Part shown: positions 8,731 through 39,424 of the stretch, piece by piece
How positions within the stretch are numbered: position 1 is the first letter of the stretch
Layout: each line of letters begins with the position of its first letter
From: a virus
Reading direction: 5' to 3' (one strand)
Virus record (IMG/VR): IMGVR_UViG_3300032560_001015
Coordinates: 1 to 57,368 of that record
DNA length: 57,368 nt
The notes under the pieces: model-generated
Databases searched by the model: none
What the model saw: the letters and a program-made list of their open reading frames with translations, nothing else
Told to the model about the DNA's origin: nothing
Translations under genes and position numbers: made by a program

Positions 8731-10652
<1,922 letters not shown>

Positions 10653-10731: not shown

Positions 10732-10761
10732 AGTATACACTAGCAGAATTATTTATGTCAA
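10732..10761 (-). promoter_or_regulatory. sigma70-type promoter of groESL
   Basis: TTGACA at 10761-10756 and TATACT at 10737-10732, spacer 18. The -35 box overlaps a CATAAATA late-like box, so groESL might be read both early and late. No CIRCE inverted repeat and no sigma32-type box was seen. Confidence 0.6.
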
Positions 10762-12556: not shown

Positions 12557-12585
12557 ATTATAGTATCATTTGGTATTGTTGTCAA
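12557..12585 (-). promoter_or_regulatory. sigma70-type promoter
   Basis: TTGACA (12585-12580), 17-base spacer, TATAAT (12562-12557), a perfect consensus match, driving the 432-aa gene that starts at 12489. Confidence 0.85.
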
Positions 12586-12603
12586 CCTCTTTTTAGAGGT
12601 AGC

Positions 12604-12623
12604 AAACCCGCCGAAGCGGGTTT
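12604..12623 (-). terminator. tmRNA 3' hairpin / probable terminator
   Basis: A perfect 8-bp stem AAACCCGC / GCGGGTTT with a CGAA loop lies about 50 bases past the tag stop codon. The T tract after it on the minus strand is short (TTT), so it may act with RNA processing rather than alone. Confidence 0.55.
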
Positions 12624-12629
12624 GGTTAT

Positions 12630-12938
12630 TTTGGGTAACAAGGCATAACTGCCCCGTGGTTGCTGTTTCTTAGGCAGCTACTGCTTCTGTACCACGAGCA
12701 AAGCGGAAACCGCGGCCCATAGATACTTTTACAGTACCAAGTGTAGATGCTTTTGCATTTACGGATTTTGCTTGATTTACAGTCATCGCCTACTGTGTTG
12801 TCCACTTGCCTACTAAGCCGTCAATCGATACCATGGCACCCCCAACGAAAAACTCTCTTTCAAAAATGCTTTGGTGGAGGCGACGGGAGTCGAACCCGTG
12901 TCTTGTCCGTTTTTGGACTCGCTTCATACAACAATTCT
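12630..12938 (-). ncRNA. ssrA: circularly permuted (two-piece) tmRNA
   Basis: Reading the minus strand, the acceptor part comes first: a T arm (ACGGG-TTCGACT-CCCGT), the strand CGCCTCC, then ACCA ending at 12872. A 28-base intervening loop follows. Then comes GGGGGTG at 12843, which pairs with CGCCTCC over all 7 positions (two G-U). Next are a TATCGATTGACGG block and the tag frame ending in TAA at 12670. This 3'-part-first order is the hallmark of permuted tmRNA genes of alphaproteobacteria, cyanobacteria and some betaproteobacteria. The tag frame ends ...GTEAVAA, the typical AA-type Clp degron. It is unusually long and basic: about 28-33 residues if translation resumes at the Ala codon near 12771 or 12756. 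Mature ends are approximate. The job would be rescue of stalled ribosomes and tagging for ClpP-type proteases. Confidence 0.8.
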
Positions 12939-13256
12939 TTAATCCCAATATGGAAGTGGTTCCTTAGCATTTAGTATAACTTCATACTCTGGATCCAACA
13001 ACCATTTTTGGATTTTTCTTTTAGCATCACGGCGATGTGGTCTTTGCATTACCATGTTAACCCACCATCCTTGTGGACAGTTGTTAAACTTATGTGTGCC
13101 TGCATCACTGTGATACTTGTTTACTACTCGTTTATACTGCTTGGTTTTTGGGTCCATTGGCACCCAAATTAATCTGCCTGGGACTTTGATCATTTCTCTA
13201 GTTTGCCAAGCTAGATCAGTGTGGTCGCCACGCTTACGTCTACGTGTTCTAGACAT
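12939..13256 (-). CDS. basic hypothetical protein
   Basis: A 105-residue, strongly basic protein beginning MSRTRRRKRGDHTDLAWQ with several Trp residues and HRRDAKRKIQKWL. The composition suggests nucleic-acid binding, but no family is recognised. The gene ends one base before the tmRNA acceptor region, so the tmRNA precursor may be cut from the same transcript. Confidence 0.55.
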   Translation of the reverse strand: MSRTRRRKRGDHTDLAWQTREMIKVPGRLIWVPMDPKTKQYKRVVNKYHSDAGTHKFNNCPQGWWVNMVMQRPHRRDAKRKIQKWLLDPEYEVILNAKEPLPYWD

Positions 13257-15650: not shown

Positions 15651-16823
15651 TTATAAGTCTTTGATTTTTTGTAGATAGCCAACTACATTTTCCATGTAAT
15701 TTAGGGCATTTTTTTGAGATGAAAGTACAGACAACAGTTCTGGACTATTTCTACGTATTAATTCAATTTGAATACTACTATCCATTAGTTGGTGTTTGAG
15801 ATCTTCTAAGGGCAGTCTGGCCACTAACTTAAACATATTCATATCTCTGAACGGAGTCCAAGTTAATGTTTTTCCTAAATGCCAGTGTTGCCAGTCATTG
15901 GCATTGTATTCGCAACACTGTTTTATAGCTTCGGCTAGTGTTGCAGATTGTGCGGGTGTGTTGGATAATTTTTCTATGTAACTACGTTTAAAAAAATCAT
16001 AATTAAGACTATTTTTAAATCTTTCCTCAGACATTACTTTGACAAATGAAGAGCCGTGGGCCTGCAATAGCTGATCAACTGTTACAGGATTTCTGGCAGT
16101 AAATTCATCACCAGGAGCTCCGCTGGCCAACACACAATTTTCTGCCCAATAGTGAATTTGGTTATATGCCCAAAATCTACTCAAATGCCCGTGATTTTTA
16201 AGATAAAAATAATCGTGTTCTATATACCCATTTGTAACTATATGGTAGTCGTCAGTGTAGTTTTTTATATATGAAAACAGCAGAGCGGTATCCACGCCAC
16301 CACTTAAAAATACACGCAAAGGCAGTCTATTGTATTCAATAAACTGTTGAACTTTTGATTTCAGTATAAGGTCAATTTGATCAACTGCCTGATCAAATGA
16401 CACAGGCGAATCGTCAATTGAGCCAATTGGGTCAAATGCAGTATGGATTAATTCTAGGTTATTGGTAAGACCAACTATTCCATCAGTGTACTGCAACTTG
16501 CCTATTTCTCTCAGATTTGTTAATCCAAGATCATAGTCATACCAAATTGGAAAACTTCTGAGATTATCAGTTCTTATCAGCAGGCCACTGTCAGTGACTT
16601 TGATAATACAAAAATTGCCGCTATGGGTGGGAGATATTTCTTCACTGATTCTTACAGCAAAATGACTTAGATCTGCGTTGTCTAAATATCCCTTGTACCA
16701 TACAAGATCACCGTGGTAGTCTTGTACCTGTGTCCACCCATCATCTAAATTTATAACAAAATGATCAGTTTGATAGTTATGTTTAAAATTAGTCTGTGCA
16801 GTTTTGCTAATGTGAAAAAACAT
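15651..16823 (-). CDS. asparagine synthase-like PP-loop protein
   Basis: A 390-residue protein. Residues 1-140 look like a decayed N-terminal glutamine-amidotransferase half. The first residue after Met is Phe, not the catalytic Cys, so ammonia release from glutamine is not expected. The second half has the ATP-pyrophosphatase loop LSGGVDTALL (S174-T179), used to adenylate a carboxylate, and continues with an asparagine-synthase-like helical domain. It may amidate or ligate a small substrate. It overlaps the clpP stop/start by one base, so the two are co-transcribed. Which molecule it acts on cannot be read from the sequence. Confidence 0.65.
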   Translation of the reverse strand: MFFHISKTAQTNFKHNYQTDHFVINLDDGWTQVQDYHGDLVWYKGYLDNADLSHFAVRISEEISPTHSGNFCIIKVTDSGLLIRTDNLRSFPIWYDYDLGLTNLREIGKLQYTDGIVGLTNNLELIHTAFDPIGSIDDSPVSFDQAVDQIDLILKSKVQQFIEYNRLPLRVFLSGGVDTALLFSYIKNYTDDYHIVTNGYIEHDYFYLKNHGHLSRFWAYNQIHYWAENCVLASGAPGDEFTARNPVTVDQLLQAHGSSFVKVMSEERFKNSLNYDFFKRSYIEKLSNTPAQSATLAEAIKQCCEYNANDWQHWHLGKTLTWTPFRDMNMFKLVARLPLEDLKHQLMDSSIQIELIRRNSPELLSVLSSQKNALNYMENVVGYLQKIKDL

Positions 16824-17443
16824 TATCTTTTTGTAATCACCTCGTCAGCAAGCCCATAGGCCACTGCTTCTTCTGCTGATAAGAATGTATCAAACTTCAT
16901 AGTGTCAAACAATTCTTCGTAGGTCTTACCTTGCGTATTATGTTTGACATAGAGTTCAGTTAGACGTTTGTTAATGCGCACACTTTCTTCAAAACTACGT
17001 TTAGCATCTTCAAACTGTAGATCTTGTACGTGTACACTACCACGTGTGCCAGGAGTACCTGAACTAACACGATGGATCATTGTACGTGCTTCTGGTAAGA
17101 CAAAACGCTTGCCTGGATGACCTGCTTGAGCAAGGAAACTACCCATACTACATGCCTGCCCAAGAACAATAGTACGCACATCTGGACGGATAAACTGCAT
17201 AGTATCATAGATAGCCAAGCCAGCAGTTACACTGCCACCTGGACTGTTGATATAGAATAAGATGTCTGCTTCTGAATTTTCTGCTTCTAGGTATAACATC
17301 TGTGCTACGATTGAACTGGCTGTATGTTCATTAACATCAGTATCTAACATCACGATACGATCTTTAAGTAGACGTGAATAAATGTCATAGGCACGTTCGC
17401 CTTGACTTGTACGTTCTACTACCATTGGGACTAAATTTGACAT
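16823..17443 (-). CDS. clpP: ClpP protease subunit
   Basis: A 206-residue serine protease that assembles as a tetradecameric chamber fed by Clp ATPases. The catalytic triad is visible: Ser99 in [10 protein letters not shown], His124 in TMIHRVS, and Asp180 in ELFDTMKFD. The [11 protein letters not shown] handle-strand region is near residue 66-75. Normal length with a very short propeptide. No Clp ATPase is in the window, so it probably works with the host's ClpX or ClpA. It lies beside a TraR/DksA gene and an asparagine-synthase-like gene, and on the same genome as ClpS and a tmRNA that supplies AA-ending tags. Confidence 0.96.
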
Positions 17444-17710
17444 TTATCTTCCTTTTGTTCGTTCTTGTAATTCTTGACAAAATACGCAGAGCTTGACTCC
17501 GCGAATAGCTGACCTACGCTTTTCTGGAATTTCATCTCCGCACTCTTCACAGTGCGTAAGGCTTGGTTGCGCCGCTTGCTGTTCTAATTGGCGGCGCACG
17601 TTAGCGATAGCATTCATGTTGTTGTGGATGGCATGTAACTGCCCCATTTCGGCTTCTTCTTCGTTATTGTACACGAAGTCGTCGTTTATTTGGATTTCTT
17701 TTACGGTCAT
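17444..17710 (-). CDS. TraR/DksA-type C4 zinc-finger protein
   Basis: An 88-residue protein with a coiled helical N-terminus (residues 20-50) and a C-terminal four-cysteine finger: C54-x2-C57 ... C75-x2-C78 (HCEECGDEIP / LCVFCQEL). This is the layout of TraR and short DksA homologues, which enter the RNA polymerase secondary channel and alter promoter kinetics in place of DksA/ppGpp. Directly upstream of clpP with no gap. With the omega subunit gene at 43076 it suggests direct control of host RNA polymerase. Confidence 0.75.
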   Translation of the reverse strand: MTVKEIQINDDFVYNNEEEAEMGQLHAIHNNMNAIANVRRQLEQQAAQPSLTHCEECGDEIPEKRRSAIRGVKLCVFCQELQERTKGR

Positions 17711-18347: not shown

Positions 18348-18376
18348 ATTATACTATCAGTTTATGGTTGTGTCAA
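18348..18376 (-). promoter_or_regulatory. sigma70-type promoter of the clpP operon
   Basis: TTGACA (18376-18371), spacer 17, TATAAT (18353-18348), reading towards 18314. The plus-strand gene starting at 18400 lies just behind it, so any promoter for that gene must overlap this region. Confidence 0.85.
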
Positions 18377-19460: not shown

Positions 19461-20942
19461 GTGCACCATACGTTAATTTTCAATTTAAGCTCTTATCAAC
19501 CAGAATATCGCAGAAGTCTAGGCGGTCATCGTATAGCCTCTTGGCTACGTGAACAAGGATGGGATGCCGAAGTAATTGACTTTATTGAATTTTGGACTTT
19601 AGAAGAATTACAAGAACTTTGTCGCGAACGTCTTAATGATCGCACAGTATTTGTTGGGTGTAGCACAACATTTTCTTATTCTAGTCCATTAATACAAAAA
19701 TTGTTTATATGGATTAAGGCAACATATCCTAAAATTAAACTGGTTGTGGGCGGGCAAAGCCTAGGACGTATTATTATACCTGCTGATTGGTACATTGAAG
19801 GATATGGCGAACATGCTATCTTAGAAGTAATAGCTCATCTGTTGGGTAATAATAACAAAGTCAAATACTCTCTATGGAACAACGGCAAGAAATTTATCAA
19901 TGCCATACACAGCTATCCAGCTTATCCAATGTCTAGTCTGCGTGTGCAGTACGAAGCTAGAGATTTTATACGTGAATTTGAATGGCTAGGTATTGAGATT
20001 GGGCGAGGTTGTAAATTTAAGTGTGACTTCTGCGCTTATCCTATACTGGGAGTCAAAGGTGATTATTCTAGAGCCGCAGATGATTTTCAACAAGAACTTC
20101 AGGACAATTATGATCAATGGGGAGTCAGCCATTATTATGCCGCTGATGAAACATTCAATGATCGCACAGAAAAAATTATTAAATTTGCAGATGCTGTTGA
20201 AAATTTAAACTTTAATCCTACCTTTATGGGATTCATACGCCCTGATTTGCTAGTGTCGCGTCGTGAAGATTGGGAACATCTACTGAGAATGAGATTTTTT
20301 ATGCATCACTATGGTGTAGAAAGTCTTAACTGGCAGTCAGCTAAAAGCATAGGCAAAGGCATGCCTACTGAAAAGTTAACTCAGGGATTGTTAGAAGCCA
20401 AGCAGTGGTTCAAACAATATGTTCCATATCATGGGGTAATGAGTTTTATTGTTGGATTACCGCACGAAACAAAAGAGACTATTCAAACTACATTTGATTG
20501 GGTTGATGCCAATTGGCAAGATCAGCATGCAACTTTTTATCCATTAAACATTGTTGTTGAGGATCGTCACAAATCTACCATTGGGGAAGATTGGGCTTCA
20601 AGAGGCTACAGAATTAAACCTCTTGAAAATATAAGCATGCCTGAAGAAAGTCTGGCACGCACAAACAATCTGCCATGGCATGATGAAATTTTAGGATTAC
20701 ACTGGGCCAATGATCACATGGATTTAAAATGGGCCATTGCAACTATCAATGATTGGAATGCAACTAAACAGATAAAGCATTCTGTATCAGGGTGGGCGTT
20801 TGGTCAGGTCCTGCCCTATACCAATTTATCAATTGAACAATTTGTTAATACACCTGCAGAAAAAATAAATCATTTTATAGTCCAACATCAGACTAAAAAA
20901 TTAATTAAAGAATATATTAACTCAAAGATCAATTATAGATAG
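19461..20942 (+). CDS. B12-binding radical SAM enzyme
   Basis: Start taken as GTG at 19461 (VHHTLIFNLSSYQPEYR...), after the stop of the previous gene; an earlier ATG at 19407 would overlap it by 46 bases. About 493 residues. Residues 1-130 form a cobalamin-binding-like domain (GWDAEVIDFIEFW, VGCSTTFSYSS, KLVVGGQSLG). The radical SAM core follows, with cluster cysteines C184-x3-C188-x2-C191 in RGCKFKCDFC. Such class B enzymes methylate or rearrange unactivated carbons. Its neighbours suggest action on a sugar-related or secondary-metabolite substrate. The 3' end overlaps the uvdE stop by 21 bases in a convergent arrangement. Confidence 0.8.
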   Translation: MHHTLIFNLSSYQPEYRRSLGGHRIASWLREQGWDAEVIDFIEFWTLEELQELCRERLNDRTVFVGCSTTFSYSSPLIQKLFIWIKATYPKIKLVVGGQSLGRIIIPADWYIEGYGEHAILEVIAHLLGNNNKVKYSLWNNGKKFINAIHSYPAYPMSSLRVQYEARDFIREFEWLGIEIGRGCKFKCDFCAYPILGVKGDYSRAADDFQQELQDNYDQWGVSHYYAADETFNDRTEKIIKFADAVENLNFNPTFMGFIRPDLLVSRREDWEHLLRMRFFMHHYGVESLNWQSAKSIGKGMPTEKLTQGLLEAKQWFKQYVPYHGVMSFIVGLPHETKETIQTTFDWVDANWQDQHATFYPLNIVVEDRHKSTIGEDWASRGYRIKPLENISMPEESLARTNNLPWHDEILGLHWANDHMDLKWAIATINDWNATKQIKHSVSGWAFGQVLPYTNLSIEQFVNTPAEKINHFIVQHQTKKLIKEYINSKINYR

Positions 20943-21965
20943 TTGCCGAGCACGTTCGTATAGTGCAAAACTAGCCAAATTCTTACCCTTGCTTTCGCAC
21001 ATGATGTCAAACTTGTCTAAGAATGACAATGCCCAATCGTTACAAGCAGTGTTCCAGTAGAAGTCACTGTGCGCACGCATCTTACTTTTCTTGTAGCCTT
21101 GCTCTAGTAGTAGGCTGTGGTTAGGAGCTGTACTAGATGAATGAGCGGGGAGAACGTCTTCTCTGGATACACTATAGTGTAGCGTAGGACGCAGGCCGCG
21201 CCAACTGTCAAGAATGCGTGCAATTCTGGCATCCTTAAGATCAATGTAATGCCCTTCGCGGATCCAATGGTGGTGGATATCAAGAACAATAGGTACAGTA
21301 TCGACAAGATTGAGGCAATCATCAAGACCATGTTTCATTTCCTCGTTTTCAATGGTAATAGTGTTGCGTGCTTCAACACTGAGTTTAGGGTAGACATCAA
21401 GGATACCTTGATAGCCTCTACGACCTGCAATATGCACGTTGCATTTAAAGTCTTGGAACTTTTGGCCATAGCCCATCATGCGAATCATGTCCGCATGATA
21501 CTCAAACTCTGCTATACTCCTGGCGACAATATCGTCATTATCGCTAGCCAAAACAGTAAACTGACCAGGATGAAAGGATAAACGTACACCACGATCCTTA
21601 GCAACCAATCCAACTTCTGCAAAAAGCTGTTCACAACGCCTTTTAACATCAGCTTGCTGCCAATAATAAGACCAGCTAGACTCAGTATATACAGGCAAGA
21701 TGTCACTGCTAATACGTACCATGCGAAGTGATTCATCTAAGTTACCTACCCTCTCAATTAGTTTGCGAGTGGACATAATGTTTTGTTCCATTAGGTCCCA
21801 TAGCCGCTGTTCAGCTACTTCGCGGGATTGACGATTAAGCCAAGCCACTGTAGTAGTACCTGTATTGAATTCTTTTGCAGCGTCTGTGGATTTGATACCC
21901 TCAACTTGATCAGGGCGATCAATCCACTTGCAGGCAAAACCGATGCGTTTGATTTGTGATGTCAT
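20922..21965 (-). CDS. uvsE: UV DNA damage endonuclease
   Basis: A 347-residue UVDE-family TIM-barrel nuclease, which nicks DNA 5' of UV photoproducts to start excision repair. Conserved pieces include IGFACKW at the start, TTVAWLNRQ, RISSDILP, LSFHPGQFTVL (metal ligand His), ENEE near residue 200 and DIHHHWI. Complete length for the family. It would give the virus light-independent repair of pyrimidine dimers, a usual need for surface-water phages. It has a consensus promoter whose +1 coincides with the ATG, so the message is probably leaderless. Confidence 0.93.
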   Translation of the reverse strand: MTSQIKRIGFACKWIDRPDQVEGIKSTDAAKEFNTGTTTVAWLNRQSREVAEQRLWDLMEQNIMSTRKLIERVGNLDESLRMVRISSDILPVYTESSWSYYWQQADVKRRCEQLFAEVGLVAKDRGVRLSFHPGQFTVLASDNDDIVARSIAEFEYHADMIRMMGYGQKFQDFKCNVHIAGRRGYQGILDVYPKLSVEARNTITIENEEMKHGLDDCLNLVDTVPIVLDIHHHWIREGHYIDLKDARIARILDSWRGLRPTLHYSVSREDVLPAHSSSTAPNHSLLLEQGYKKSKMRAHSDFYWNTACNDWALSFLDKFDIMCESKGKNLASFALYERARQLSIIDL

Positions 21966-29773: not shown

Positions 29774-30103
29774 ATGGATATTGTAATGTTAATCAATAAG
29801 TATGGCTTCCCCATTGTCATGGCAGTGGGCATGGGCTATATTATCAAATACGTATGGGAATGGAGCACAAAAGAAGTTAAGCCTGTGATTAGCGATGCTA
29901 ACACTGTGCTGATTGCGCTTATTGATCGTATACGTATGCTAGACAATGACCTAATACGCTTAAATCAAAAAGTAAACACAGTCTTACACCTACGTGGCAA
30001 AACAATTGAACACGAACGTGTTGAAGCTGAAAAAGAAATTAATATGAAAGTACATAAAGCTAAAACAGAAGACGACCAAGCCGCATCAAGCGGCGAAGGT
30101 TAA
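29774..30103 (+). CDS. small membrane protein, holin-like (paralogue 2)
   Basis: A 109-residue protein beginning MDIVMLINKYGFPIVMAVGM with a helix near residues 8-28, then a charged coiled tail with LIALIDRIRMLDNDLIRLNQ and VLHLRG. Related to the protein at 28025-28306. Ends convergent with the D,D-peptidase gene; the two stop codons overlap by 4 bases. Confidence 0.6.
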   Translation: MDIVMLINKYGFPIVMAVGMGYIIKYVWEWSTKEVKPVISDANTVLIALIDRIRMLDNDLIRLNQKVNTVLHLRGKTIEHERVEAEKEINMKVHKAKTEDDQAASSGEG

Positions 30104-30870
30104 CTTTTAATTAGCTCTTCTGCCTCTGGAAAGCGTGTATGTGCATTGCGACTTCCAAGTAGGGCAATTATACGCTGACCTAACTGCGTATTCATCAGCA
30201 TTACCAAACATCCGCCACTTTGGTGAATATACCCAGTTTTACTTACAATAATATCATCGTCATGTAGTCTAACAATAGGGCTGGTATTAAATGCCTGATA
30301 CCAATGTTTCTTTACTTTAATCTCAACGCTAGGTCGAGTAGCACTGACTATGTTGGGATAACTTTTAGCACTGATAATAAGTTTAATTAAATCGCGAGCT
30401 GTACTGACGTTGGTTTCCTCTAGGCCAGTGGGATCAGTGTAGTGTGTGTTGGCCATGCCAAGATTGATGGCCTTGAGATTCATAGCCTCTATACAACTAT
30501 CAACTCCGCCTGGATAGTTCGCGCATAAAGTATAGGCCGCAAAGTTATCACTTTTAACCATGGCTAGATCAATTAGGTCTTGGCGAGTAAGTGTTTTAAC
30601 ACTATGAGGTAAGTGTGTATGATATTGGCGGGTTAACTTATAGTCTAAGATAATCACGTCATCTAACGGCTGGCGAGAATCTAGCACAACCATAATGGTC
30701 ATTAGTTTAGTAATACTAGCAATAGGGCGTGGTTGATCTGCATCTTTCTCAATAACAACTTGTCCTTGAGTATCAGTGACCAAATAGCTCTTAGCAGTTA
30801 CACCAGCTTGTACGGTAACTGCAAACGATACCAAAAGAAAAAATATAATTTTATTCATAGTTAATAACAT
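30100..30870 (-). CDS. D-alanyl-D-alanine carboxypeptidase / endopeptidase (S11 family)
   Basis: A 256-residue penicillin-binding-type peptidase. Signal peptide to about residue 22 (alternate start at the ATG four codons in). The active-site motifs are present in order: SITK (S52-K55), SDN near residue 111 and SKTG near 209. It would act on peptidoglycan stem peptides in the periplasm. It ends near KTG+45 without the C-terminal domain and membrane anchor of PBP5, like PBP7. On a phage it may loosen the wall for lysis or for export of surface proteins. It overlaps the radical SAM gene start/stop by 20 bases. Confidence 0.85.
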   Translation of the reverse strand: MLLTMNKIIFFLLVSFAVTVQAGVTAKSYLVTDTQGQVVIEKDADQPRPIASITKLMTIMVVLDSRQPLDDVIILDYKLTRQYHTHLPHSVKTLTRQDLIDLAMVKSDNFAAYTLCANYPGGVDSCIEAMNLKAINLGMANTHYTDPTGLEETNVSTARDLIKLIISAKSYPNIVSATRPSVEIKVKKHWYQAFNTSPIVRLHDDDIIVSKTGYIHQSGGCLVMLMNTQLGQRIIALLGSRNAHTRFPEAEELIKS

Positions 30871-32008
30871 CCGTTATGACATTTCGTTTAATTAACTCTT
30901 TGAAGTCTTCCATGTTGTCTGCCTTTGGTGCGCAATACCCGCAGAAGCATATAGATTTTGCACACTTGACCACAGGCATAGATTTAGTTTCAAATTGCTC
31001 TTTAAGATTATTGATTAGTGCTGAGCTATTGCTCAAGTTGCCAATTGGTTCTACTTTGCCAGTGAATGACATCTTACAATCTTTATTAAAATAGACCTTG
31101 CCAGTGGTCTGTTGAACAAATAAGAAGAACCAATTTACACTACAGTTCCAGCCAAAGAATCCCTGTTTAGGCACAAATACCACAGCTGATTTCAAGTCTT
31201 TGTTTAAGGACATTTTCCTACCACCACAACATGCACGACCTTCACAGATGCTTACAACATCGCTGGTATCTGTTGCTATATCATTTAATTGTTCTATAGC
31301 TGGTTGATTATTTTTTGAATTGGTATTAGAAATCCAAAATGTTTTAAACTTTGAATATTGATCAGCGGTGTATGCTAGTTCTGGATTATCAAATGGTTTG
31401 GGTATACATCTAATATCGTGTTGCTTACAAAATTCCACAGCTTCAGATGATTTAATCCATAACTCAGGTACGGTGTGCATCATTACCACACATTTTACAC
31501 GCTTGTTATTGTTCTTTAATTCTAATAGATTTTCAAAGAATATCTTTTCTTGTTTAGGAAGATTTTCTGCATGATAGCTGACTGTAAATTCATCTATTAG
31601 ATCTATTACTTTGCTCCAGATACTTTGTTTAACAATAGCATTGGTAGTGGTGGTAATAGTTAATTCCCATTGGCTGGAATACTTTTTATATTTTTCTCTG
31701 CAGGCAGTGAGAATATCAATGATGTCTGGATGATACAAACTTTCGCCGCCATAGACGTTTAATACTACCTTACGTTGAGTGGGCTTTTTATTGGCCATGT
31801 ATAGGCTAACGTACTCATACATAAAGTCAATAGTTTGTAAACATTCATCTAGCGGAGGATGAGGTAACGAGTTATCGTGCCCTCCTTCTTCACCTATTTC
31901 GCAATAGCTGCAATCCAAATTGCACTTTTTGGTTAGTTCCCAATCTAATAGAAAGGCTGGTATATTATTGGGATCTAGAGCGATCCCAATTGATTTAATT
32001 TCTTCCAT
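30851..32008 (-). CDS. radical SAM enzyme with extra cysteines
   Basis: A 385-residue protein. The cluster motif CNLDCSYC (C29-x3-C33-x2-C36) opens a SAM radical core, with the GGES-like NVYGGESLYHP near residue 88. Additional cysteines appear as CEGRACCGGRK near residue 255 and CAKSICFCGYC near residue 350, fitting a SPASM-like second cluster region, as in enzymes that modify peptides. No candidate precursor peptide is directly adjacent. It overlaps the cyclase gene by one base, so the peptidase, SAM enzyme, cyclase and lipoprotein are one operon. Confidence 0.78.
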   Translation of the reverse strand: MEEIKSIGIALDPNNIPAFLLDWELTKKCNLDCSYCEIGEEGGHDNSLPHPPLDECLQTIDFMYEYVSLYMANKKPTQRKVVLNVYGGESLYHPDIIDILTACREKYKKYSSQWELTITTTTNAIVKQSIWSKVIDLIDEFTVSYHAENLPKQEKIFFENLLELKNNNKRVKCVVMMHTVPELWIKSSEAVEFCKQHDIRCIPKPFDNPELAYTADQYSKFKTFWISNTNSKNNQPAIEQLNDIATDTSDVVSICEGRACCGGRKMSLNKDLKSAVVFVPKQGFFGWNCSVNWFFLFVQQTTGKVYFNKDCKMSFTGKVEPIGNLSNSSALINNLKEQFETKSMPVVKCAKSICFCGYCAPKADNMEDFKELIKRNVITDVINYE

Positions 32009-34032
32009 TATTTGCTCGTAGCGTGATAAGTGCCGTCCCAGTTAGCTGGAACTCCCTCTTCAAGACGCTCAATCATCTTGTGATAGTATTCTTTAATTTC
32101 TACAGTTGGATCAGCTTCTAGTTCACGTGCCCATTTAAGTGCGGCAACCCAATTGCCACGTAGATATTCTTTCTTATATTCTTCGTGTTTGTATGCGACT
32201 GTATGACCCACAGCATAGATATCTAAGCCGATGGTTTTGCCTTTAACAGCAATGTTGTCTAACCATACCACAGGGAAGTCATCTTTACAATACTCAGCAG
32301 TCTTAGGTCCAATGATTAGTAATACACCATAGGCCTTAGTTTGTCCTTCTAAACGTGCCGCAGTGCTGACACTATCACCTAAGACATCATAGCCAAACTT
32401 ACTTTTAGCACCAATGTTACCAATTAAAGTTTCACCTGTGTTAACACCAGCACCCATGCCCACTGGTGGACGACCTTTGGCTGTTAGTTCCTTGTTGAAA
32501 TCAGCAATGGCATCAATCATTTCTAGTGCTGTACGTACCGCAGTCTTGGCATGGTTAGCATCATCCAATGGAGCACCATGAACGTGCAGGCTGGCATCAC
32601 CAATGAACTTGATCAGTGTACCGTCATTCTTAAGCACAGGAATACTCAGTGCTGTCATGTAGTCGTTCATGATCTGTGTAAGTCCTTCTACATCATCACC
32701 AAACGATTCGCCTAGGGTAGTAAACCCACGCAGGTCTGTCATGACAATTGATAGTTCTTTACGCTCACCACCTAGTTTGATCAGCTCTGGATTCTTTTGC
32801 AAGCGTTCTACTATAGTAGGATTAACATAGCTGCCAAACTGTTTCTTGATCTGTTGTTTCTGTAAGAATTCACTAACAAACTTAACACCATAAGCGTGTA
32901 GCATAACAAGAACTACACCTGCTGTAGGCACAATAGCATCTATTAAGAACTTGTAGTGCGCAAACACATACATGCTTGCTGGAATTAAACTAGCAGTTAA
33001 TACAACACCTACACCTAGGCCAACATATACCCAACGTGATAATATTAGGATAATAAGTGAGATAACTACAAGTGCTAATAGTTCAGCACCAGGAGCCCAA
33101 TCAGGACGTTCAATATTTACATTGTTAGCCAGCGTAGCAACTACAGCGGCCTGCATGTCTTGTGGCCAAACACTGCCTTTTGATGTTGCTACTGGATTAC
33201 CAATACCTGCGGCACTGGTACCTACAATAACAATACCTTTCTTAAAGTCTTTAGGTAGGTTAACTGCTGATACAGGAATACTCTGTTGACTCCAGTCTAC
33301 CCAGATACGACCTAGGCTGTCTGTACTAATAGGACGGAAGCTAGGCACACGCATTTTCTCAACGCCATTCTCATTTAGCTTAACTTGGAATGTGTCATCA
33401 TTACTAATAACACGCAGTACTTCTAAAGGAACGCTGGGATATAAGCCACCATTATAGCCCACAAACAATGGCAAGCGACGATTAACACCATCAATCTCTG
33501 GCATAGTGTTAGCAATACCAACACCAATGGCATTATTTTCTAATTCTGGAATGTTGGCAATAATGCCTGGATAGTTAATGATAGTATCTAAATAGTCTGC
33601 ACCAATTACAGCACTACCTGGTTTGCGTGGAATATTCTTGCTGGTCTGTGCGGGCATGTTAGTAAGAATAACATTAGCCTGTGTTCTTAACACTGTGGCT
33701 AGTGTTGCATCGCCACCTTGGCGATCCTTTTCTGGCATTAATACGTCCCAAACAACTAGGCCAGCATTGTGGGCGTATATTTGATCAATTAGATTAGCAT
33801 AGATGTCACGCTTAAATGGCCATTGACCATAACGGTCTATGGTAGCTTCATCTATGTTTACAGTATAGATATTATTTTGAGTAGGCTTCTGATTGGTAAT
33901 AAGTGTGTCAAAGTATCGGAGCCTAACACTTTCTACAAATGTAGGTCCTTGAAACACTACAGCTACAATAAGAGCTAGAGTAATGAGAGCAGTCCATGGA
34001 CTGACTAAGATTTTCTTAAGTTTGTTTTTCAT
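32008..34032 (-). CDS. CHASE2-domain membrane adenylyl cyclase
   Basis: A 674-residue membrane protein. One N-terminal helix (14-33), an extracytoplasmic CHASE2-type sensor (about 35-305), three helices (about 315-385) and a C-terminal class III cyclase (425-610). The catalytic domain has metal Asp433 (TDLRGFT) and Asp479 (KFIGDASLHVHGAP), Lys475 and Asp549 that select adenine, and Arg560. The usual transition-state Asn is Ser556 in GDSVSTAARLEG, so activity may be reduced or regulated differently. It would make cAMP when its sensor is occupied. Ends 1 base into the radical SAM gene and starts in the lipoprotein stop. A membrane cyclase is very uncommon in phage. Confidence 0.9.
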   Translation of the reverse strand: MKNKLKKILVSPWTALITLALIVAVVFQGPTFVESVRLRYFDTLITNQKPTQNNIYTVNIDEATIDRYGQWPFKRDIYANLIDQIYAHNAGLVVWDVLMPEKDRQGGDATLATVLRTQANVILTNMPAQTSKNIPRKPGSAVIGADYLDTIINYPGIIANIPELENNAIGVGIANTMPEIDGVNRRLPLFVGYNGGLYPSVPLEVLRVISNDDTFQVKLNENGVEKMRVPSFRPISTDSLGRIWVDWSQQSIPVSAVNLPKDFKKGIVIVGTSAAGIGNPVATSKGSVWPQDMQAAVVATLANNVNIERPDWAPGAELLALVVISLIILILSRWVYVGLGVGVVLTASLIPASMYVFAHYKFLIDAIVPTAGVVLVMLHAYGVKFVSEFLQKQQIKKQFGSYVNPTIVERLQKNPELIKLGGERKELSIVMTDLRGFTTLGESFGDDVEGLTQIMNDYMTALSIPVLKNDGTLIKFIGDASLHVHGAPLDDANHAKTAVRTALEMIDAIADFNKELTAKGRPPVGMGAGVNTGETLIGNIGAKSKFGYDVLGDSVSTAARLEGQTKAYGVLLIIGPKTAEYCKDDFPVVWLDNIAVKGKTIGLDIYAVGHTVAYKHEEYKKEYLRGNWVAALKWARELEADPTVEIKEYYHKMIERLEEGVPANWDGTYHATSK

Positions 34033-34255: not shown

Positions 34256-34349
34256 TGGCGGAGAGCGAGGGATTCGAACCCTCGATACAGGTTTAAGCCC
34301 GTATGCTTCCTTAGCAGGGAAGTGCCTTCGACCACTCGGCCAGCTCTCC
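34256..34349 (-). tRNA. tRNA-Ser(GCU)
   Basis: Full class II cloverleaf with long variable arm; anticodon GCT in the loop CTGCTAA; acceptor GGAGAGC/GCTCTCC; G73 and CCA encoded. Confidence 0.95.
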
Positions 34350-34355
34350 AATTCT

Positions 34356-34430
34356 TGGTGCTGGATGTCGGGATTGAACTGACGACCTACCGCTTACAAG
34401 GCGGTTGCTCTACCACTGAGCTAATCCAGC
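34356..34430 (-). tRNA. tRNA-Thr(UGU)
   Basis: Acceptor GCTGGAT/ATCCAGC, anticodon stem ACCGC/GCGGT with loop CTTGTAA (TGT), A73, CCA encoded. Confidence 0.95.
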
Positions 34431-34437
34431 AATTTAA

Positions 34438-34522
34438 TGGTGCCCCAAGAGAGACTTGAACTCTCACACCTTTCGGTACTTGCTTCTAAGACAAGCGTGT
34501 CTGCCAATTCCACCATCGGGGC
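34438..34522 (-). tRNA. tRNA-Leu(UAG)
   Basis: Class II tRNA with long variable arm, loop CTTAGAA (anticodon TAG), CCA encoded. The only Leu gene recognised in the array. Confidence 0.94.
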
Positions 34523-34527
34523 AATAT

Positions 34528-34980
34528 TTAAACTGTTTCTTTTTTCTTTCTACCACCCTTACGATTAAGGGCAATTTTTCTTTTATGTTCTTCTGATTTA
34601 GGTTTACCTTTATTACCTGACCCATTGGTATTACCTTTTTTATTTTTACCATTCATTTTACAGGCTTCTTCATACCCATATTTGGCAACCATTCTATCCC
34701 AAGGACTATTATCTTTGCCCTGATCTATTCTATTTTCTTGTGCAGTGCCCCAATATAAATGTTTTGGGTTACTACACTTTTCATTGTTACAGGCATGGCA
34801 TATATGTATTTTATGTCCACTTGGGATACTCGTATCTAATACATGGGCCATTAGCCCTTTACAATAACTAGATAATCCACCTTTTTGTGGGCCACCTCTT
34901 TCTATGCAAGACTCCGTTAAAACTAAGTGTTGTTGCCTTGCTTCTTTAGATTGTTTAATATACTCTTCTATTAATAACAT
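34528..34980 (-). CDS. HNH endonuclease with NUMOD3 motif
   Basis: A 150-residue protein inside the tRNA array. The HNH core is HICHACNNEKCSNPKHLYWGTAQEN (two Cys pairs around the fold, Asn-His pair), followed by a Lys/Gly-rich NUMOD3 segment (NKGKPKSEEHKRKIALNRKG). An AAGGAG site precedes the ATG. A free-standing mobile nuclease lodged between tRNA-Leu and tRNA-Glu; its likely target is the matching tRNA intergenic region in related phages. Confidence 0.82.
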   Translation of the reverse strand: MLLIEEYIKQSKEARQQHLVLTESCIERGGPQKGGLSSYCKGLMAHVLDTSIPSGHKIHICHACNNEKCSNPKHLYWGTAQENRIDQGKDNSPWDRMVAKYGYEEACKMNGKNKKGNTNGSGNKGKPKSEEHKRKIALNRKGGRKKKETV

Positions 34981-35051
34981 TTTATATCTCCTTATGTTTA
35001 TTTAGCTAAACACATTGAAAAATGTCATTTATTGTAATTACCAAAATTAAT

Positions 35052-35127
35052 TGGTACATCTAACGAGATTCGAACTCGTGTTCCCGCCGTGAAAGGGCGG
35101 TGTCCTAGGCCTCTAGACGATAGATGC
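35052..35127 (-). tRNA. tRNA-Glu(UUC) copy 1
   Basis: Loop CTTTCAC (anticodon TTC), acceptor GCATCTA/TAGATGT with a G-U first pair, A73, CCA encoded. A second Glu gene lies at 41278. Confidence 0.94.
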
Positions 35128-35341
35128 ATTGTGTCCTGCTACCAGCACTACCTGGCCCAGAACTGAGCGGTTACTCTGTCCGTCTGTTTGCTTTGTGGTT
35201 AAAAACAGCAAAACACCCACGATACTTTCAAGGCTCCCGGCAATGGGACTTAGAGGTAGTCGCTAAACTTTATCGTGCGCACCCTGGCGTTATGGTATCA
35301 CCAATGACCCACTTTCTTTAAGGAAAAGTGTAACCTAGTGT
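35128..35341. other. non-coding spacer in tRNA array
   Basis: No convincing gene. Small hairpins can form, including CACTTTTCCTT/AAGAAAGTG-type pairing near 35310-35332. It may be leader or processing RNA between tRNA-Glu and tRNA-Met. A short plus-strand frame here has no ribosome site and is not annotated. Confidence 0.4.
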
Positions 35342-35416
35342 TGGTTGCGGTCGCAGGACTCGAACCTGGTCTCCAGCTTATGAGGCTGGCGAGCTGCCAA
35401 TTGCTCCACCACCGCT
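35342..35416 (-). tRNA. tRNA-Met(CAU), initiator-like, odd acceptor
   Basis: Loop CTCATAA in stem CCAGC/GCTGG. The D-arm wording GGTGGAGCA...TTGGCAGCTCG closely follows bacterial initiator tRNA. With a CCA end, positions 1 and 72 are A and A (unpaired, as initiators need) and there is one further mismatch near 7-66. The three G-C anticodon-stem pairs of normal initiators are missing. Initiator identity is an inference. Confidence 0.8.
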
Positions 35417-35422
35417 ATCAAC

Positions 35423-35662
35423 TTAAACGTTATTAACCCTAAGGTTAAGAACAAAATTCTCTACTAATAACTTAGTTACTGTGGCTAACAGTATTGCTTC
35501 ACCATCAGCACTATTGGTAAATTCTTCATACACTTCATAGGCTTGACTGCCAACGATTTGATAGATTCTATCTTTTTCTAAAGGCAGGCCTTCCCAATCA
35601 ATCATATCACTGAGCTCTACTTCTTTGGCCAGTTCAATAATCTCTTCTTGCGTATATTTCAT
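35423..35662 (-). CDS. 79-aa acidic hypothetical protein
   Basis: A small acidic, helical protein (MKYTQEEIIELAKEVELSDM...) sitting between tRNA genes in the same direction. No family recognised. Ends NFVLNLRVNNV. Confidence 0.55.
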   Translation of the reverse strand: MKYTQEEIIELAKEVELSDMIDWEGLPLEKDRIYQIVGSQAYEVYEEFTNSADGEAILLATVTKLLVENFVLNLRVNNV

Positions 35663-35698
35663 ATTATACTGCCTTTTAGTGACTATGTCAAATACTTA

Positions 35699-35773
35699 TG
35701 GTCCGGCGTGAGGGAATCGAACCCCCAACTAGGGAGTAGAAATCCCCTGTTATATCCATTTAACTAACACCGG
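35699..35773 (-). tRNA. tRNA-Arg(UCU)
   Basis: Loop TTTCTAC (anticodon TCT), acceptor CCGGTGT/ACGCCGG, A73, CCA encoded. Reads the rare AGA/AGG codons. Confidence 0.94.
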
Positions 35774-35775
35774 TT

Positions 35776-35852
35776 TGGTGGGCCCACCTGGACTTGAACC
35801 AGGAATCTCCAAATTATGAGTTTGTTGCTTCAACCAATTAAGCTATAGGCCC
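35776..35852 (-). tRNA. tRNA with CAU anticodon, probable tRNA-Ile2 (lysidine type)
   Basis: Loop CTCATAA, acceptor GGGCCTA/TGGGCCC, T arm CTGGTTCAAGTCCAG identical in style to bacterial tRNA-Ile2. If modified by host TilS it would read AUA; otherwise it is an elongator Met. Confidence 0.85.
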
Positions 35853-35859
35853 TGTAAAA

Positions 35860-35933
35860 TGGAGCGGGATAAGGGAATCGAACCCTCACCAAAAGATTGG
35901 AAATCTCTTGTTCTGCCATTAAACTAATCCCGC
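35860..35933 (-). tRNA. tRNA-Gly(UCC)
   Basis: Loop TTTCCAA (anticodon TCC), acceptor GCGGGAT/ATCCCGC, T73, CCA encoded. First gene after the array promoter at 35953. Confidence 0.95.
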
Positions 35934-35952
35934 ATTAACCAAACAAGCATAT

Positions 35953-35981
35953 ATTATACGCTCATTTGGCCGCTGTGTCAA
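35953..35981 (-). promoter_or_regulatory. sigma70-type promoter for tRNA genes
   Basis: TTGACA (35981-35976), spacer 17, TATAAT (35958-35953), reading into tRNA-Gly at 35933. It overlaps the 3' end of the YkuK-like gene. Confidence 0.82.
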
Positions 35982-36448
35982 CCATTTACTACGTGATGTA
36001 GACGGTCTGCCGCATAGCTAGCCGCAAACGCATTTGGTTTAACCAATGGTATGACATTACAGGTACCACGGATATAACCAATTGCTTGTTGCACCACACA
36101 GCTTGACCCATGCATTTCATCAGGGTTAATGTCTAAGTGAACTTCAACTTCACGATCTTCTAATACTTCGTGCAGTTTAAGGTATAGTTCTGAAATCTTA
36201 TATACTTCGTTCATTAGACGCATAGCTGGACGACTACGCTTTTGATCATAGTCAACTTCAACTGAGCTTTCACCAAAGATCTTACAGCCGTTTTTACCGT
36301 TAAGGTGTACAACCACTGCCAAGGTGTATTCAGCATACCATTTGCCATTTTTACGGAAACGACGGCTGTCTCCACCAATGTAGACTTTGGTTTCTGCGCT
36401 CTGTGATTCTATGTAATCACGGACATAATTGATGTCTAATTTTTTCAT
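35978..36448 (-). CDS. YkuK-type RNase H-like protein
   Basis: A 156-residue protein of the DUF458/YkuK family. Conserved segments: YIGGDSRRFRK with the first acidic residue, VEVHLDINPDEMHGSSCVVQQAIGYIRG with His-Leu-Asp, and the end KPNAFAASYAADRLHH. These give an RNase H-like acidic active site. Its precise substrate (RNA in RNA/DNA hybrids or tRNA-related) is not known. It lies inside the tRNA array, reading in the same direction. Confidence 0.72.
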   Translation of the reverse strand: MKKLDINYVRDYIESQSAETKVYIGGDSRRFRKNGKWYAEYTLAVVVHLNGKNGCKIFGESSVEVDYDQKRSRPAMRLMNEVYKISELYLKLHEVLEDREVEVHLDINPDEMHGSSCVVQQAIGYIRGTCNVIPLVKPNAFAASYAADRLHHVVNG

Positions 36449-36468
36449 GTTATACCTTTATTTAACGT

Positions 36469-36544
36469 TGGTGCTACCTCTTGGACTTGAACCAAGCACA
36501 CCCGACTCTTCAGGCCGGTGCTCTACCAGATGAGCTAAGGTAGC
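36469..36544 (-). tRNA. tRNA-Phe(GAA)
   Basis: Loop CTGAAGA (anticodon GAA), acceptor GCTACCT/AGGTAGC, A73, CCA encoded. Confidence 0.95.
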
Positions 36545-36546
36545 AT

Positions 36547-36966
36547 TTAAACTAAACCTAAATAGTGCATTAGCTTGTGTTTGACCATCAAGTTAGGAAT
36601 ACGAAATTTCTCTGTATCTCTAAACCCAATCATAACGCCAACTTCTGCTACTGCACCACTGCGTGCTACACCCATATGGCAGTGTACCACTACATTCATA
36701 TGTTCATTCCATGCTTCACGTAATGCTTCAGCAATACCTTTAGCATCTTCATTGGTAATTGCTGCATCATACAAACAACCGTCAGGCTCATTGTCTTCTA
36801 CGTCTAGGAAGTAGAACTGATAGGTCTTACGGAACTGATGTTTAGGCGTTGGAAACTCTACACCAGGATCTACAATCTGGATCAGCATACTGTTGAAACC
36901 TGGGTCGTAGTGATATCCCTTGCGAACATCATCAAGACTAATATTTTCAATCCACGGTTTCATCAT
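36547..36966 (-). CDS. dual-specificity/tyrosine phosphatase-like protein
   Basis: Start placed at the ATG at 36966 (MMKPWIENISLDDV...), 8 bases after an AAGGATGAG site; longer frames run into the gene above. About 139 residues. The signature loop VVVHCHMGVARSGA supplies nucleophile Cys96 and Arg102 (C-x5-R-S), and Asp in VEDNEPDG may be the general acid. A cysteine phosphatase that could remove phosphate from host proteins or from RNA/nucleotide 5' ends. The upstream gene's stop overlaps. Confidence 0.78.
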   Translation of the reverse strand: MMKPWIENISLDDVRKGYHYDPGFNSMLIQIVDPGVEFPTPKHQFRKTYQFYFLDVEDNEPDGCLYDAAITNEDAKGIAEALREAWNEHMNVVVHCHMGVARSGAVAEVGVMIGFRDTEKFRIPNLMVKHKLMHYLGLV

Positions 36967-37330
36967 CGTACTCATCCTTATAATATTCTGGGTGTTTAGC
37001 ACGGACAGCAAGATGCGTACCCATTGCCGCACCACAGCTAAACCGATCACCCTCTTTGAACTTTCTGCCGTTAAGTTTGAACGGCTTTAGAACTCTATCG
37101 CCATTCCACTGACCACGTTGGATATGAATGTAACCTAGCTCGCCTAACTGCTCACGCAAACGGGCAAACTCTGGGTGGTCTTCTGAACTTGTGCTACTAC
37201 ACTTACCTTTACCTTGTAGGATTAATAGCAGTTCATCATTGGTTGGCACACGACCATTATTCGTATAAGAATTCCATTCTTTATGAATAGTCACACTAGT
37301 CATATACTCTGGGTTAATTGTAAAGTCCAT
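36947..37330 (-). CDS. hypothetical protein
   Basis: Start placed at the ATG 37330 (MDFTINPEYMTSVTIHK...), 8 bases after AAGG; a GTG three codons earlier is possible. About 127 residues, with an Arg/Lys-rich core (HIQRGQWNGDRVLKPFKLNGRKF) and an acidic end. No family recognised. Overlaps the phosphatase start. Confidence 0.55.
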   Translation of the reverse strand: MDFTINPEYMTSVTIHKEWNSYTNNGRVPTNDELLLILQGKGKCSSTSSEDHPEFARLREQLGELGYIHIQRGQWNGDRVLKPFKLNGRKFKEGDRFSCGAAMGTHLAVRAKHPEYYKDEYDDETVD

Positions 37331-37524
37331 TATGCCCACCTTAACAAGAATAAAGTAAATTCATCTTCGTCCATTTCTACATATTTTCGTTTACTGGCGT
37401 AATGTTGCCAGGTAAACTTATATCCTAGGTCAGACAAAAATGTTATCCAATTAATATAGTCTTGCCTATAAAATTCTTTACACAATTTTGGAAACTCATT
37501 AACACTAAAATTAATCTTATTCAT
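37330..37524 (-). CDS. 64-aa hypothetical protein
   Basis: A small basic/aromatic protein (MNKINFSVNEFPKLCKEFYR...). Its TAA overlaps the ATG of the next gene (TAATG), showing translational coupling. No family. Confidence 0.5.
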   Translation of the reverse strand: MNKINFSVNEFPKLCKEFYRQDYINWITFLSDLGYKFTWQHYASKRKYVEMDEDEFTLFLLRWA

Positions 37525-37529
37525 TCAGT

Positions 37530-37745
37530 TTAAACTTTCCTGCCTTTGAACTTGGTATCTTTAGTACCACGACGTTTATACCAACCATATGGTTCACCGT
37601 TGGGTAATAGACCATCTATAACTCCTGCGACGCCCATTTCTCCTACAAACACAGGAGGCTCCTCAACATGTGTACGAAGAGCTTCTCGTGTCTCAACCCA
37701 ACTTGGTTGTTGCTTAGAAGTCATAGTCTTTTGATTCATATTCAT
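37530..37745 (-). CDS. 71-aa hypothetical protein
   Basis: A small protein (MNMNQKTMTSKQQPSWVETR...) with a GYKRRGTKDTKFKGRK-type basic end and the phrase GEPYGWYKRRG. It overlaps the gene above by 32 bases, so its true start may be the second ATG. No family. Confidence 0.5.
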   Translation of the reverse strand: MNMNQKTMTSKQQPSWVETREALRTHVEEPPVFVGEMGVAGVIDGLLPNGEPYGWYKRRGTKDTKFKGRKV

Positions 37746-38067
37746 TTGCTTGTAGTATTTCCCAAGTCATAGACTTTTGGAACTGTTCGTAAGCAGAACC
37801 TTTACGCAACCAATCAGCAACAATATCTTGGCTACCCCAACTACCTGGCGGAGCAAAGTCCTGTAGCCATAGTGAATATTCTTTTAAGCGTGTTTTGTTC
37901 CAATGGTCTGCACGTGCAATAACATCGGTCCACGGATCGCAACTTAACAAACTGGTTAAGAAACTACCTGGTGGTAGAGCATATAAGAAATAGTTCTTAA
38001 GTGCTTCTTGACTTACATCAGGTAAATCACTTAGACCATTCCAATCAAATTTGGTTTTCATATTCAT
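37714..38067 (-). CDS. 117-aa hypothetical protein
   Basis: A Trp-rich acidic/helical protein (MNMKTKFDWNGLSDLPDVSQ...). Contains LPPGSFLTSLLSCDPW and FAPPGSWGSQD. No family recognised. Overlaps both neighbours in one operon. Confidence 0.5.
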   Translation of the reverse strand: MNMKTKFDWNGLSDLPDVSQEALKNYFLYALPPGSFLTSLLSCDPWTDVIARADHWNKTRLKEYSLWLQDFAPPGSWGSQDIVADWLRKGSAYEQFQKSMTWEILQANEYESKDYDF

Positions 38068-38302
38068 GCCCTCGCCTTCCTAGTTCATCAATTAAGCCTG
38101 CGTAGGCTAAAGTAGTTTCTTGTCCTAATGCTTCTAGCATGTTAATACAGTTAATAATATAACCTGTTTCCATATCAGATATTAGTAATACCTTGCGTTC
38201 TTTAGTTAGCCATGTTGCATAGTGCATTCTGCGGTACTCTTTAAAGTCCGCATTGTCAGGTGTGCTTAATATATCCCAGGCTAATTGTTGTTCTTCAGTC
38301 AC
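38045..38302 (-). CDS. 85-aa hypothetical protein (GTG start)
   Basis: Starts with GTG at 38302 (VTEEQQLAWDILSTPDN...), directly after the TGA of the 54-aa gene (TGAGTG). Contains a basic helix and ends ELGRRGHEYENQI. No family. Confidence 0.5.
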   Translation of the reverse strand: MTEEQQLAWDILSTPDNADFKEYRRMHYATWLTKERKVLLISDMETGYIINCINMLEALGQETTLAYAGLIDELGRRGHEYENQI

Positions 38303-38467
38303 TCAGAAACTCTCATCTGCTGTGGCATACATATATTCAATATGTTTGACCTGATCGTGCCATTCAGCAAATCGTTCAACAGTCCACTGCCCAGATAATA
38401 CCATAGCATAGGCTGTTTCAGCATCTTCTGCTTCTTGGAACTTGGTGTATGTATTTTTATTTTTCAT
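38303..38467 (-). CDS. 54-aa hypothetical protein
   Basis: Small frame beginning MKNKNTYTKFQEAEDAETAY and ending YATADESF, with a FAEWHDQVKHIEYMY helix. It lies 6 bases past a consensus -10 box (TATAATACACATATG), giving a very short or absent leader. First gene of the five-gene unit leading to the phosphatase. Confidence 0.6.
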   Translation of the reverse strand: MKNKNTYTKFQEAEDAETAYAMVLSGQWTVERFAEWHDQVKHIEYMYATADESF

Positions 38468-38473
38468 ATGTGT

Positions 38474-38502
38474 ATTATACAGTCATTTAATCAAAATGTC
38501 AA
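38474..38502 (-). promoter_or_regulatory. sigma70-type promoter for the 54-aa gene
   Basis: TTGACA (38502-38497), spacer 17, TATAAT (38479-38474), then ACACAT and ATG. Another near-leaderless case. Confidence 0.83.
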
Positions 38503-38503
38503 G

Positions 38504-38578
38504 TGGGGTGTCTAACGGGGTTCGAACCCGTGATGCAGGAATCACAATCCTGAATGTTACCGCTACATTATAGACACC
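38504..38578 (-). tRNA. tRNA-His(GUG)
   Basis: Loop TTGTGAT (anticodon GTG). The extra G-1 at 38578 pairs with C73, the His identity mark; CCA encoded. Confidence 0.95.
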
Positions 38579-38580
38579 AT

Positions 38581-38654
38581 TGGAGCAGGATACGAGAATC
38601 GAACTCGTGACTAGACGTTGGCAACGTTTCGTTTTACCATTAAACTAATCCTGC
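38581..38654 (-). tRNA. tRNA-Gly(GCC)
   Basis: Loop TTGCCAA (anticodon GCC), acceptor GCAGGAT/ATCCTGC, T73, CCA encoded. Confidence 0.95.
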
Positions 38655-38662
38655 ATTAAAAC

Positions 38663-38740
38663 TGGAGCCCCCAGAGAGATTCGAACTCCCCACCTTTTGG
38701 TTCGTAGCCAAATGCTCTAATCCAAATGAGCTATGGAGGC
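38663..38740 (-). tRNA. tRNA-Arg(ACG)
   Basis: Loop CTACGAA (anticodon ACG), acceptor GCCTCCA/TGGGGGC, CCA encoded. A34 needs deamination to inosine by the host TadA enzyme to read CGU/CGC/CGA. Confidence 0.94.
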
Positions 38741-38741
38741 A

Positions 38742-38818
38742 TGGTAGCAATAACTAGATTCGAACTAGTGACCTTATCCGTATGAAGGATCTGCTCTGGC
38801 CAGCTGAGCTATATTGCT
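38742..38818 (-). tRNA. tRNA-Met(CAU), elongator-like
   Basis: Loop TTCATAC (anticodon CAT), acceptor AGCAATA/TATTGCT, CCA encoded. Third CAU tRNA of the array, presumably elongator Met. Confidence 0.9.
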
Positions 38819-38826
38819 ATGTTGGA

Positions 38827-39402: not shown

Positions 39403-39424
39403 AGTATATATTTACATTTATTCT

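Follow-up and report, generated by a model that had tools for sequence, protein, structure and literature searches.

Large phages of the Rak2-like group are known to carry parts of the cellular machinery for protein quality control: Clp sets, DnaJ, Hsp20 and GroES have all been published (PMC6102473, PMC11242549, PMC7824862), and the authors describing Agrobacterium phage Atu_ph07 suggested that these genes help the host through the stress of infection (PMC6102473). A preliminary description of the DNA analyzed here proposed that a nearly complete kit of this type gives a phage control over proteolysis and folding during a long infection, much the same idea as that published for Atu_ph07 (PMC6102473). 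We examined the window, by which we mean the whole stretch of 57,368 bases (IMG/VR virus record IMGVR_UViG_3300032560_001015, positions 1 to 57,368). Its kit is a fuller version of those already published; what looks new is the tag encoded by its tmRNA.

Origin of the sequence

The whole window matches, at 100% identity, a segment of G001, a viral contig of 149,159 bases that is itself a fragment, and from base 29 onward it likewise matches, at 100% identity, a 95-kb contig (G002). Virion proteins are encoded at 2.2-6.5 kb of the window, ARAGORN recognizes 28 tRNAs, and G001 additionally codes for a DNA polymerase of the T4 type and for a protein that partially matches a major head protein. 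The best isolate matches by ClpP are the PA5oct-like Pseudomonas phages (61-62%), Sinorhizobium phage Phosso (58%) and Atu_ph07 (54%); these matches, a tree built from ClpA and DnaJ, and the T4-type polymerase supply the core genes common to Atu_ph07 and PA5oct by which membership in the Rak2-like group is recognized. Judged by its genes, the window is a fragment of a tailed phage, as had been supposed, and its near relatives are viral contigs and jumbo phages of the Rak2/PA5oct/Atu_ph07 type. Its source is a Rak2-like jumbo phage whose hosts are probably freshwater Betaproteobacteria.

The minus strand of the window also encodes several other functions. Among the 28 tRNA genes (34256-42288) lie small ORFs, genes resembling those of homing endonucleases and a number of perfect sigma-70 consensus sites, and another such site lies just upstream of a UV endonuclease UvdE (20922-21965) that adjoins a radical-SAM protein. 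A phage D-alanyl-D-alanine carboxypeptidase (Peptidase_S11) occupies 30100-30870, and a gene at 32008-34032 joins a CHASE2 sensor domain to an adenylate/guanylate cyclase domain; this phage enzyme of cyclic-nucleotide signalling recurs in six of the eight relatives examined. A curli-like cluster (45259-50979) comprises CsgF, CsgG, a curlin-repeat protein, a FecR-domain protein and two unknowns; relatives of CsgG and CsgF are also present in G005, G006 and G012-G015 and absent from G003 and G008, and curli pore genes are already known from marine phages (PMC9004378).

Chaperone and protease genes

The protein-coding members of the kit are as follows, the last two lying on G001.

8731-10350, minus strand: GroEL chaperonin, 539 aa (Pfam PF00118 Cpn60, 7.6e-75; NCBIfam TIGR02348, 820 bits against a cut-off of 582)
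10362-10652, minus strand: GroES co-chaperonin, 96 aa (Pfam PF00166, 7.5e-31; NF001527, 127.5 against a cut-off of 120)
16823-17443, minus strand: ClpP peptidase, 206 aa (Pfam CLP_protease PF00574, 2.1e-64)
52564-52896, minus strand: ClpS, the N-degron adaptor of ClpA, 110 aa (Pfam PF02617, 8.6e-28)
52951-53394, minus strand: Hsp20 small heat-shock protein, 147 aa, nearest to IbpA (Pfam PF00011, 7.1e-20; NF008013, 1.9e-39, below cut-off)
53438-55360, minus strand: DnaK, 640 aa (Pfam HSP70, 3.3e-254; TIGR02350, 905.6 bits against a cut-off of 822.6)
116853-117710 of G001: DnaJ, adjoining ClpA
117734-120037 of G001: ClpA, starting 23 bases after DnaJ

The preliminary description named ClpP, ClpS, GroEL, GroES, DnaK, Hsp20 and a tmRNA; Pfam, NCBIfam, ARAGORN and Rfam confirm each of these seven parts as intact, with matches that cannot be due to chance, and, as that description held, they span folding, holding, ribosome rescue, tagging and degradation. 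The interval to which it assigned them (16823-17443, minus strand) coincides with a single gene, that of ClpP; the remaining six map to other places in the window. GroEL and DnaK both exceed the cut-offs of their equivalog models, GroES lies 11 bases upstream of GroEL in a groES-groEL operon, and Hsp20 has the alpha-crystallin domain. DnaK, Hsp20 and ClpS form a tight run, separated by 43 and then by 54 bases. The nearest cellular relatives of this DnaK are those of Betaproteobacteria (69-76%), and six phage DnaKs form a single clade in a midpoint-rooted tree: DnaK was acquired once, with its closest affinity to Betaproteobacteria, and kept across the clade. This affinity, which speaks to the origin of the gene and not to the host, fits a freshwater betaproteobacterial host as well as the score of the tmRNA against the beta-type model.

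ClpP retains its Ser-His-Asp triad in alignment with ClpP structures from the PDB and matches the S14 family profile. The N-terminal stretch that forms the axial loop in cellular ClpP is also retained, and the handle region is longer by some 10 residues. The protein passes the PRK00277 subfamily cut-off narrowly (251 vs. 249, NCBIfam) and falls below that of the equivalog TIGR00493 (238 bits vs. 308.6), such that, on its profile scores, it is best described as a divergent protein of the ClpP family rather than as the equivalog itself. ClpS, aligned with its Caulobacter counterpart, conserves the residues that line the N-degron pocket (Asn, Asp, Met and His); it scores under every NCBIfam equivalog cut-off and far over that of Pfam. 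We had sought ClpS at the gene adjoining ClpP (17444-17710, minus strand, directly upstream), which instead encodes a DksA/TraR-type zinc-finger protein; ClpS itself is 35 kb away. Relatives of the zinc-finger protein occur near ClpP in several of the phages with long tags.

The Clp ATPase, DnaJ and GrpE had been expected to come from the host. This holds for GrpE, which was found in none of 19 records, and fails for the other two, which are neighbors on G001. ClpA has both Walker A motifs and an IGF tripeptide in the position of the ClpP docking loop, and its 755-residue fragment scores 822.7 bits against TIGR02639, below the cut-off of 993. DnaJ retains the HPD motif and scores below the NCBIfam equivalog cut-off, far above chance. 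Sixteen records, among them those of the isolates PA5oct, Phosso and Atu_ph07, have both genes, and in every one the two are no more than about 4 kb apart. ClpX-type ATPases of about 400 residues occur in G003, G004, G007, G008, G009, G011 and the same three isolates, and were not found in the DnaK-bearing records. Because ClpA is encoded on G001 and both ClpP and ClpS in the window, the components of a ClpAP protease with its ClpS adaptor are complete.

SmpB, for which a search had been suggested, and the Aat transferase, which would complete the N-degron branch, were, like GrpE, found in none of the 19 records in searches that detected their controls; for GrpE and SmpB, absence from the clade rests on G006 (329 kb), the sole near-full-length member, as absences from fragments prove little. 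Since neither GrpE nor SmpB was found in these records, the phage DnaK and tmRNA appear to lean on those of the host.

A two-piece tmRNA with a long tag

The tmRNA gene and its parts are the following.

About 12579-12987, minus strand: circularly permuted (two-piece) tmRNA (ARAGORN; Rfam RF04321, 112.8 bits; RF01850, beta tmRNA, 98 bits)
About 12872-12910, minus strand: 3' tRNA-like part
About 12817-12843, minus strand: 5' tRNA-like part, with the tag downstream
12670-12756, minus strand: tag frame of 28 codons, AKASTLGTVKVSMGRGFRFARGTEAVAA (ARAGORN; resume and stop regions aligned through Rfam; relatives)
12603-12624, minus strand: terminator-like hairpin 3' of the tmRNA, AAACCCGC TTCG GCGGGTTT (palindromic stem scan)

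That the gene is of the permuted kind is a detail missing from the preliminary description. The acceptor stem forms all seven of its pairs, includes G3-U70 and is followed by an encoded CCA. Among relatives the stem covaries, with G3-U70 and CCA kept, and the few rows that seemed partly unpaired proved, when re-read by eye, to be shifts of one or two bases in the boundary placed by ARAGORN. The hairpin, reported on the plus strand, has a weak T run on the minus strand, and a similar one follows the tmRNAs of most relatives. An SmpB gene on the same genome does not define a phage tmRNA, but the molecule needs SmpB to function; with no SmpB gene found in the 19 records, that of the host would have to serve.

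Near relatives have tags of 28-30 residues with the core KVSMGRGFRF, whereas sister phages have ordinary 10-residue tags (e.g., ANDEQFALAA). When extended tags were found without recourse to the motif, the core was exact in eight, had Lys for Arg in G053, and read KVKAAKGFRF in the 33-residue tag of G020; the DnaK-bearing G036 has a hand-read candidate tag of 21 residues that lacks the core. A pattern of the exact codons of the core retrieved 24 viral contigs, all in a tag-like context: ARAGORN predicted a tmRNA at 19, and the other five share the resume and stop context. The pattern, confined to the exact codons and to exact KVSMGRGFRF, was absent from 84,980 prokaryote genomes; tblastn gave no match to the tag in sequenced phage isolates, for which a 28-residue query is weak; and the core was not found within another phage protein among the loci scanned. 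No report of a long conserved tag turned up in open papers, and absence there is not proof. Another departure from the usual form occurs among the short tags: those of G003, G004 and G011 (ANDSQFLMVA or ANDEQFLMVA; tmRNA loci L203, L282 and L284) end in MVA followed by two stops, as opposed to the usual ALAA.

Does the tag have a special role as a peptide? It is quite possible, although we put the chance at less than even, that it does not, and that the extra codons reflect a feature at the RNA level or recent shared descent. All eight long-tag genomes belong to one clade with 100/100 support in the ClpA-DnaJ tree, and because they do, conservation of the core is partly due to descent. In addition, G036 carries DnaK together with a candidate tag that lacks the core. 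Arguing against this reading, pairwise differences within the core are distributed 16/16/62 over the three codon positions, unlike those in the flanks (89/123/101 upstream and 90/128/106 downstream, G020 omitted), in a comparison among related sequences whose flanks were not gap-aligned; at the level of sites this bias is only suggestive (Fisher p = 0.08, or 0.23 without G020). Moreover, the core tolerates the Lys-for-Arg change and the use of two serine codon families, and no RNA structure within it was supported.

DnaK is present in six of the eight long-tag genomes (none was seen in the other two, fragments of 90 and 110 kb) and in none of the short-tag contigs of at least 240 kb. We considered a functional link between DnaK and the long tag and rejected it: both mark one clade of the ClpA-DnaJ tree, and the coincidence therefore counts as a single evolutionary event. 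The ClpP tree was too weak for this question.

A more tentative proposal, which we think rather unlikely but worth stating, is that of a private trans-translation pathway, in which KVSMGRGFRF would be read by phage machinery (ClpAP, an unknown adaptor, or the phage DnaK) such that the phage, and not the host, sorts the rescued proteins. The suggestion that the core might be bound by DnaK, or might act as a private degron, is a guess: it draws on the composition of the core, which is basic and aromatic with no acidic residue, and on the company of its gene.

Promoter-like sites and proposed function of the kit

A scan for TTGACA-16/18-TATAAT with at least 11 of 12 matches returned 14 sigma-70-like sites on the minus strand of the window, compared with about 1.2 expected per strand from a base-shuffled control. 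These sites precede the GroES, ClpP and DnaK runs and also occur among the tRNAs. Those ahead of the kit are:

10732-10761, minus strand: promoter-like site with 11 of 12 matches, 80 bases upstream of GroES
18348-18376, minus strand: perfect promoter-like site ahead of the gene run ending in ClpP
55837-55866, minus strand: perfect promoter-like site, separated by 43 bases from a small ORF (55561-55794) that it precedes and that is upstream of DnaK-Hsp20-ClpS

Promoters of the host type suggest early expression, a timing that we infer from the sites themselves. The explanation that we favor, and consider reasonably probable, is that the kit would act as an early and largely self-sufficient phage proteostasis module that borrows GrpE and SmpB from the host. 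Host RNA polymerase would transcribe the kit operons early in infection; GroES/GroEL, DnaK with DnaJ, and Hsp20 would fold and hold newly made phage proteins, with host GrpE serving the phage DnaK. Phage ClpA may dock onto phage ClpP to form ClpAP, to which phage ClpS would add recognition of N-degrons, though ClpP could instead serve the ClpX or ClpA of the host. Where mRNAs have been cut or depleted, stalled ribosomes would be rescued by the two-piece tmRNA with host SmpB, and the product, bearing a long tag that ends in a small hydrophobic degron, would most likely pass to ClpAP.

Alternatively, phage ClpP, ClpS and ClpA might redirect proteolysis toward host regulators or defense proteins, with DnaJ and DnaK detuning the host heat-shock response. 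The early-type promoters would suit such a takeover, the deployment of jumbo-phage ClpP and ClpS against the host has been discussed (PMC7824862), and a J-domain protein of phage RB43 stabilizes host sigma-32, to judge from a title cited in PMC12619734. Nevertheless, takeover alone leaves GroELS, Hsp20 and the tmRNA unexplained, and we consider it a possible but not a likely account, albeit one that is not exclusive with a proteostasis module.

Less probable still is that the kit serves mainly to build virions, its chaperones folding large structural proteins and its ClpP acting in head maturation or being packaged. PHROGs labels the ClpP match as 'head maturation protease', the ClpP of PA5oct is annotated ESI-MS/MS (mass spectrometry), which may mean a virion role, and GroES/GroEL adjoin structural genes at 2-8 kb. 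However, an S77 prohead protease is present in seven of the eight relatives of at least about 289 kb and in PA5oct, Phosso and Atu_ph07, leaving ClpP free for another job; and the cellular ClpP model fits the protein better (251 bits, over its cut-off) than does the head-protease model NF045542 (82 bits vs. a cut-off of 120). No capsid gene was found beside ClpP. Both the S77 protease and the low NF045542 score thus speak against a head protease, and ClpP is probably not one.

That the contig is bacterial or chimeric, and its kit therefore ordinary, is scarcely credible: the kit genes are bacterial in origin, but the virion proteins, the 28 tRNAs, the phage polymerase of G001 and the recurrence of the kit in numerous independent viral contigs and isolates speak against it, and the 100% match to viral G001, together with the relatives, already refutes it.

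If the phage ClpA, ClpP and ClpS cooperate as the proteostasis module would have them do, the virus brings a complete AAA+ protease with an N-degron adaptor, plus Hsp70/Hsp40, Hsp60/Hsp10 and Hsp20, and would need few host partners (GrpE and SmpB). What large phages must degrade or rescue then becomes directly testable, and the tag offers a handle: it is a conserved peptide of known sequence, confined to one clade, with which a receptor can be fished out.

Comparison with known systems

Atu_ph07 (PMC6102473) is likewise a Rak2-like jumbo phage, with ClpX, ClpA, ClpB, ClpP, ClpS and a DnaJ adjoining ClpA; it differs in lacking DnaK and any match to the permuted tmRNA, and its ClpP is 54% identical. 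Pseudomonas phage PA5oct (NC_071039, Arenbergviridae) shares ClpP (62% identical), ClpS beside Hsp20, DnaJ beside ClpA and a small 'chaperonin', but has ClpX and FtsH, and searches of it for DnaK and a permuted tmRNA gave no match. Among Sinorhizobium phages, AP-J-162 (PMC11242549) has GroES, Hsp20, DnaJ, six Clp proteins and a tmRNA, and Phosso (PV764938) has ClpP, ClpS, ClpA, a ClpX-type ATPase and a permuted tmRNA; Phosso differs in lacking DnaK and in its 13-residue candidate tag, ANDNVSTKVALAA.

The moraphages, mainly freshwater jumbo phages, also carry DnaK, DnaJ, Hsp20 and ClpA (PMC12619734); unlike the phage described here, they form a separate lineage with DnaK of the Bacteroidota type, in a paper that makes no mention of tmRNA (PMC12619734). 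The methylophage Melnitz and the pelagimyophages combine a phage two-piece tmRNA with curli pore genes and differ in being marine myophages apparently without this chaperone and Clp set (PMC9004378). With the bacterial ssrA/tmRNA, finally, the phage molecule shares the tRNA-like domain, G3-U70, CCA, the resume region and a small hydrophobic end to the tag; in bacteria the most frequent tag length is 10 (PMC11915505), as against 28-30 residues with a conserved middle in this clade.
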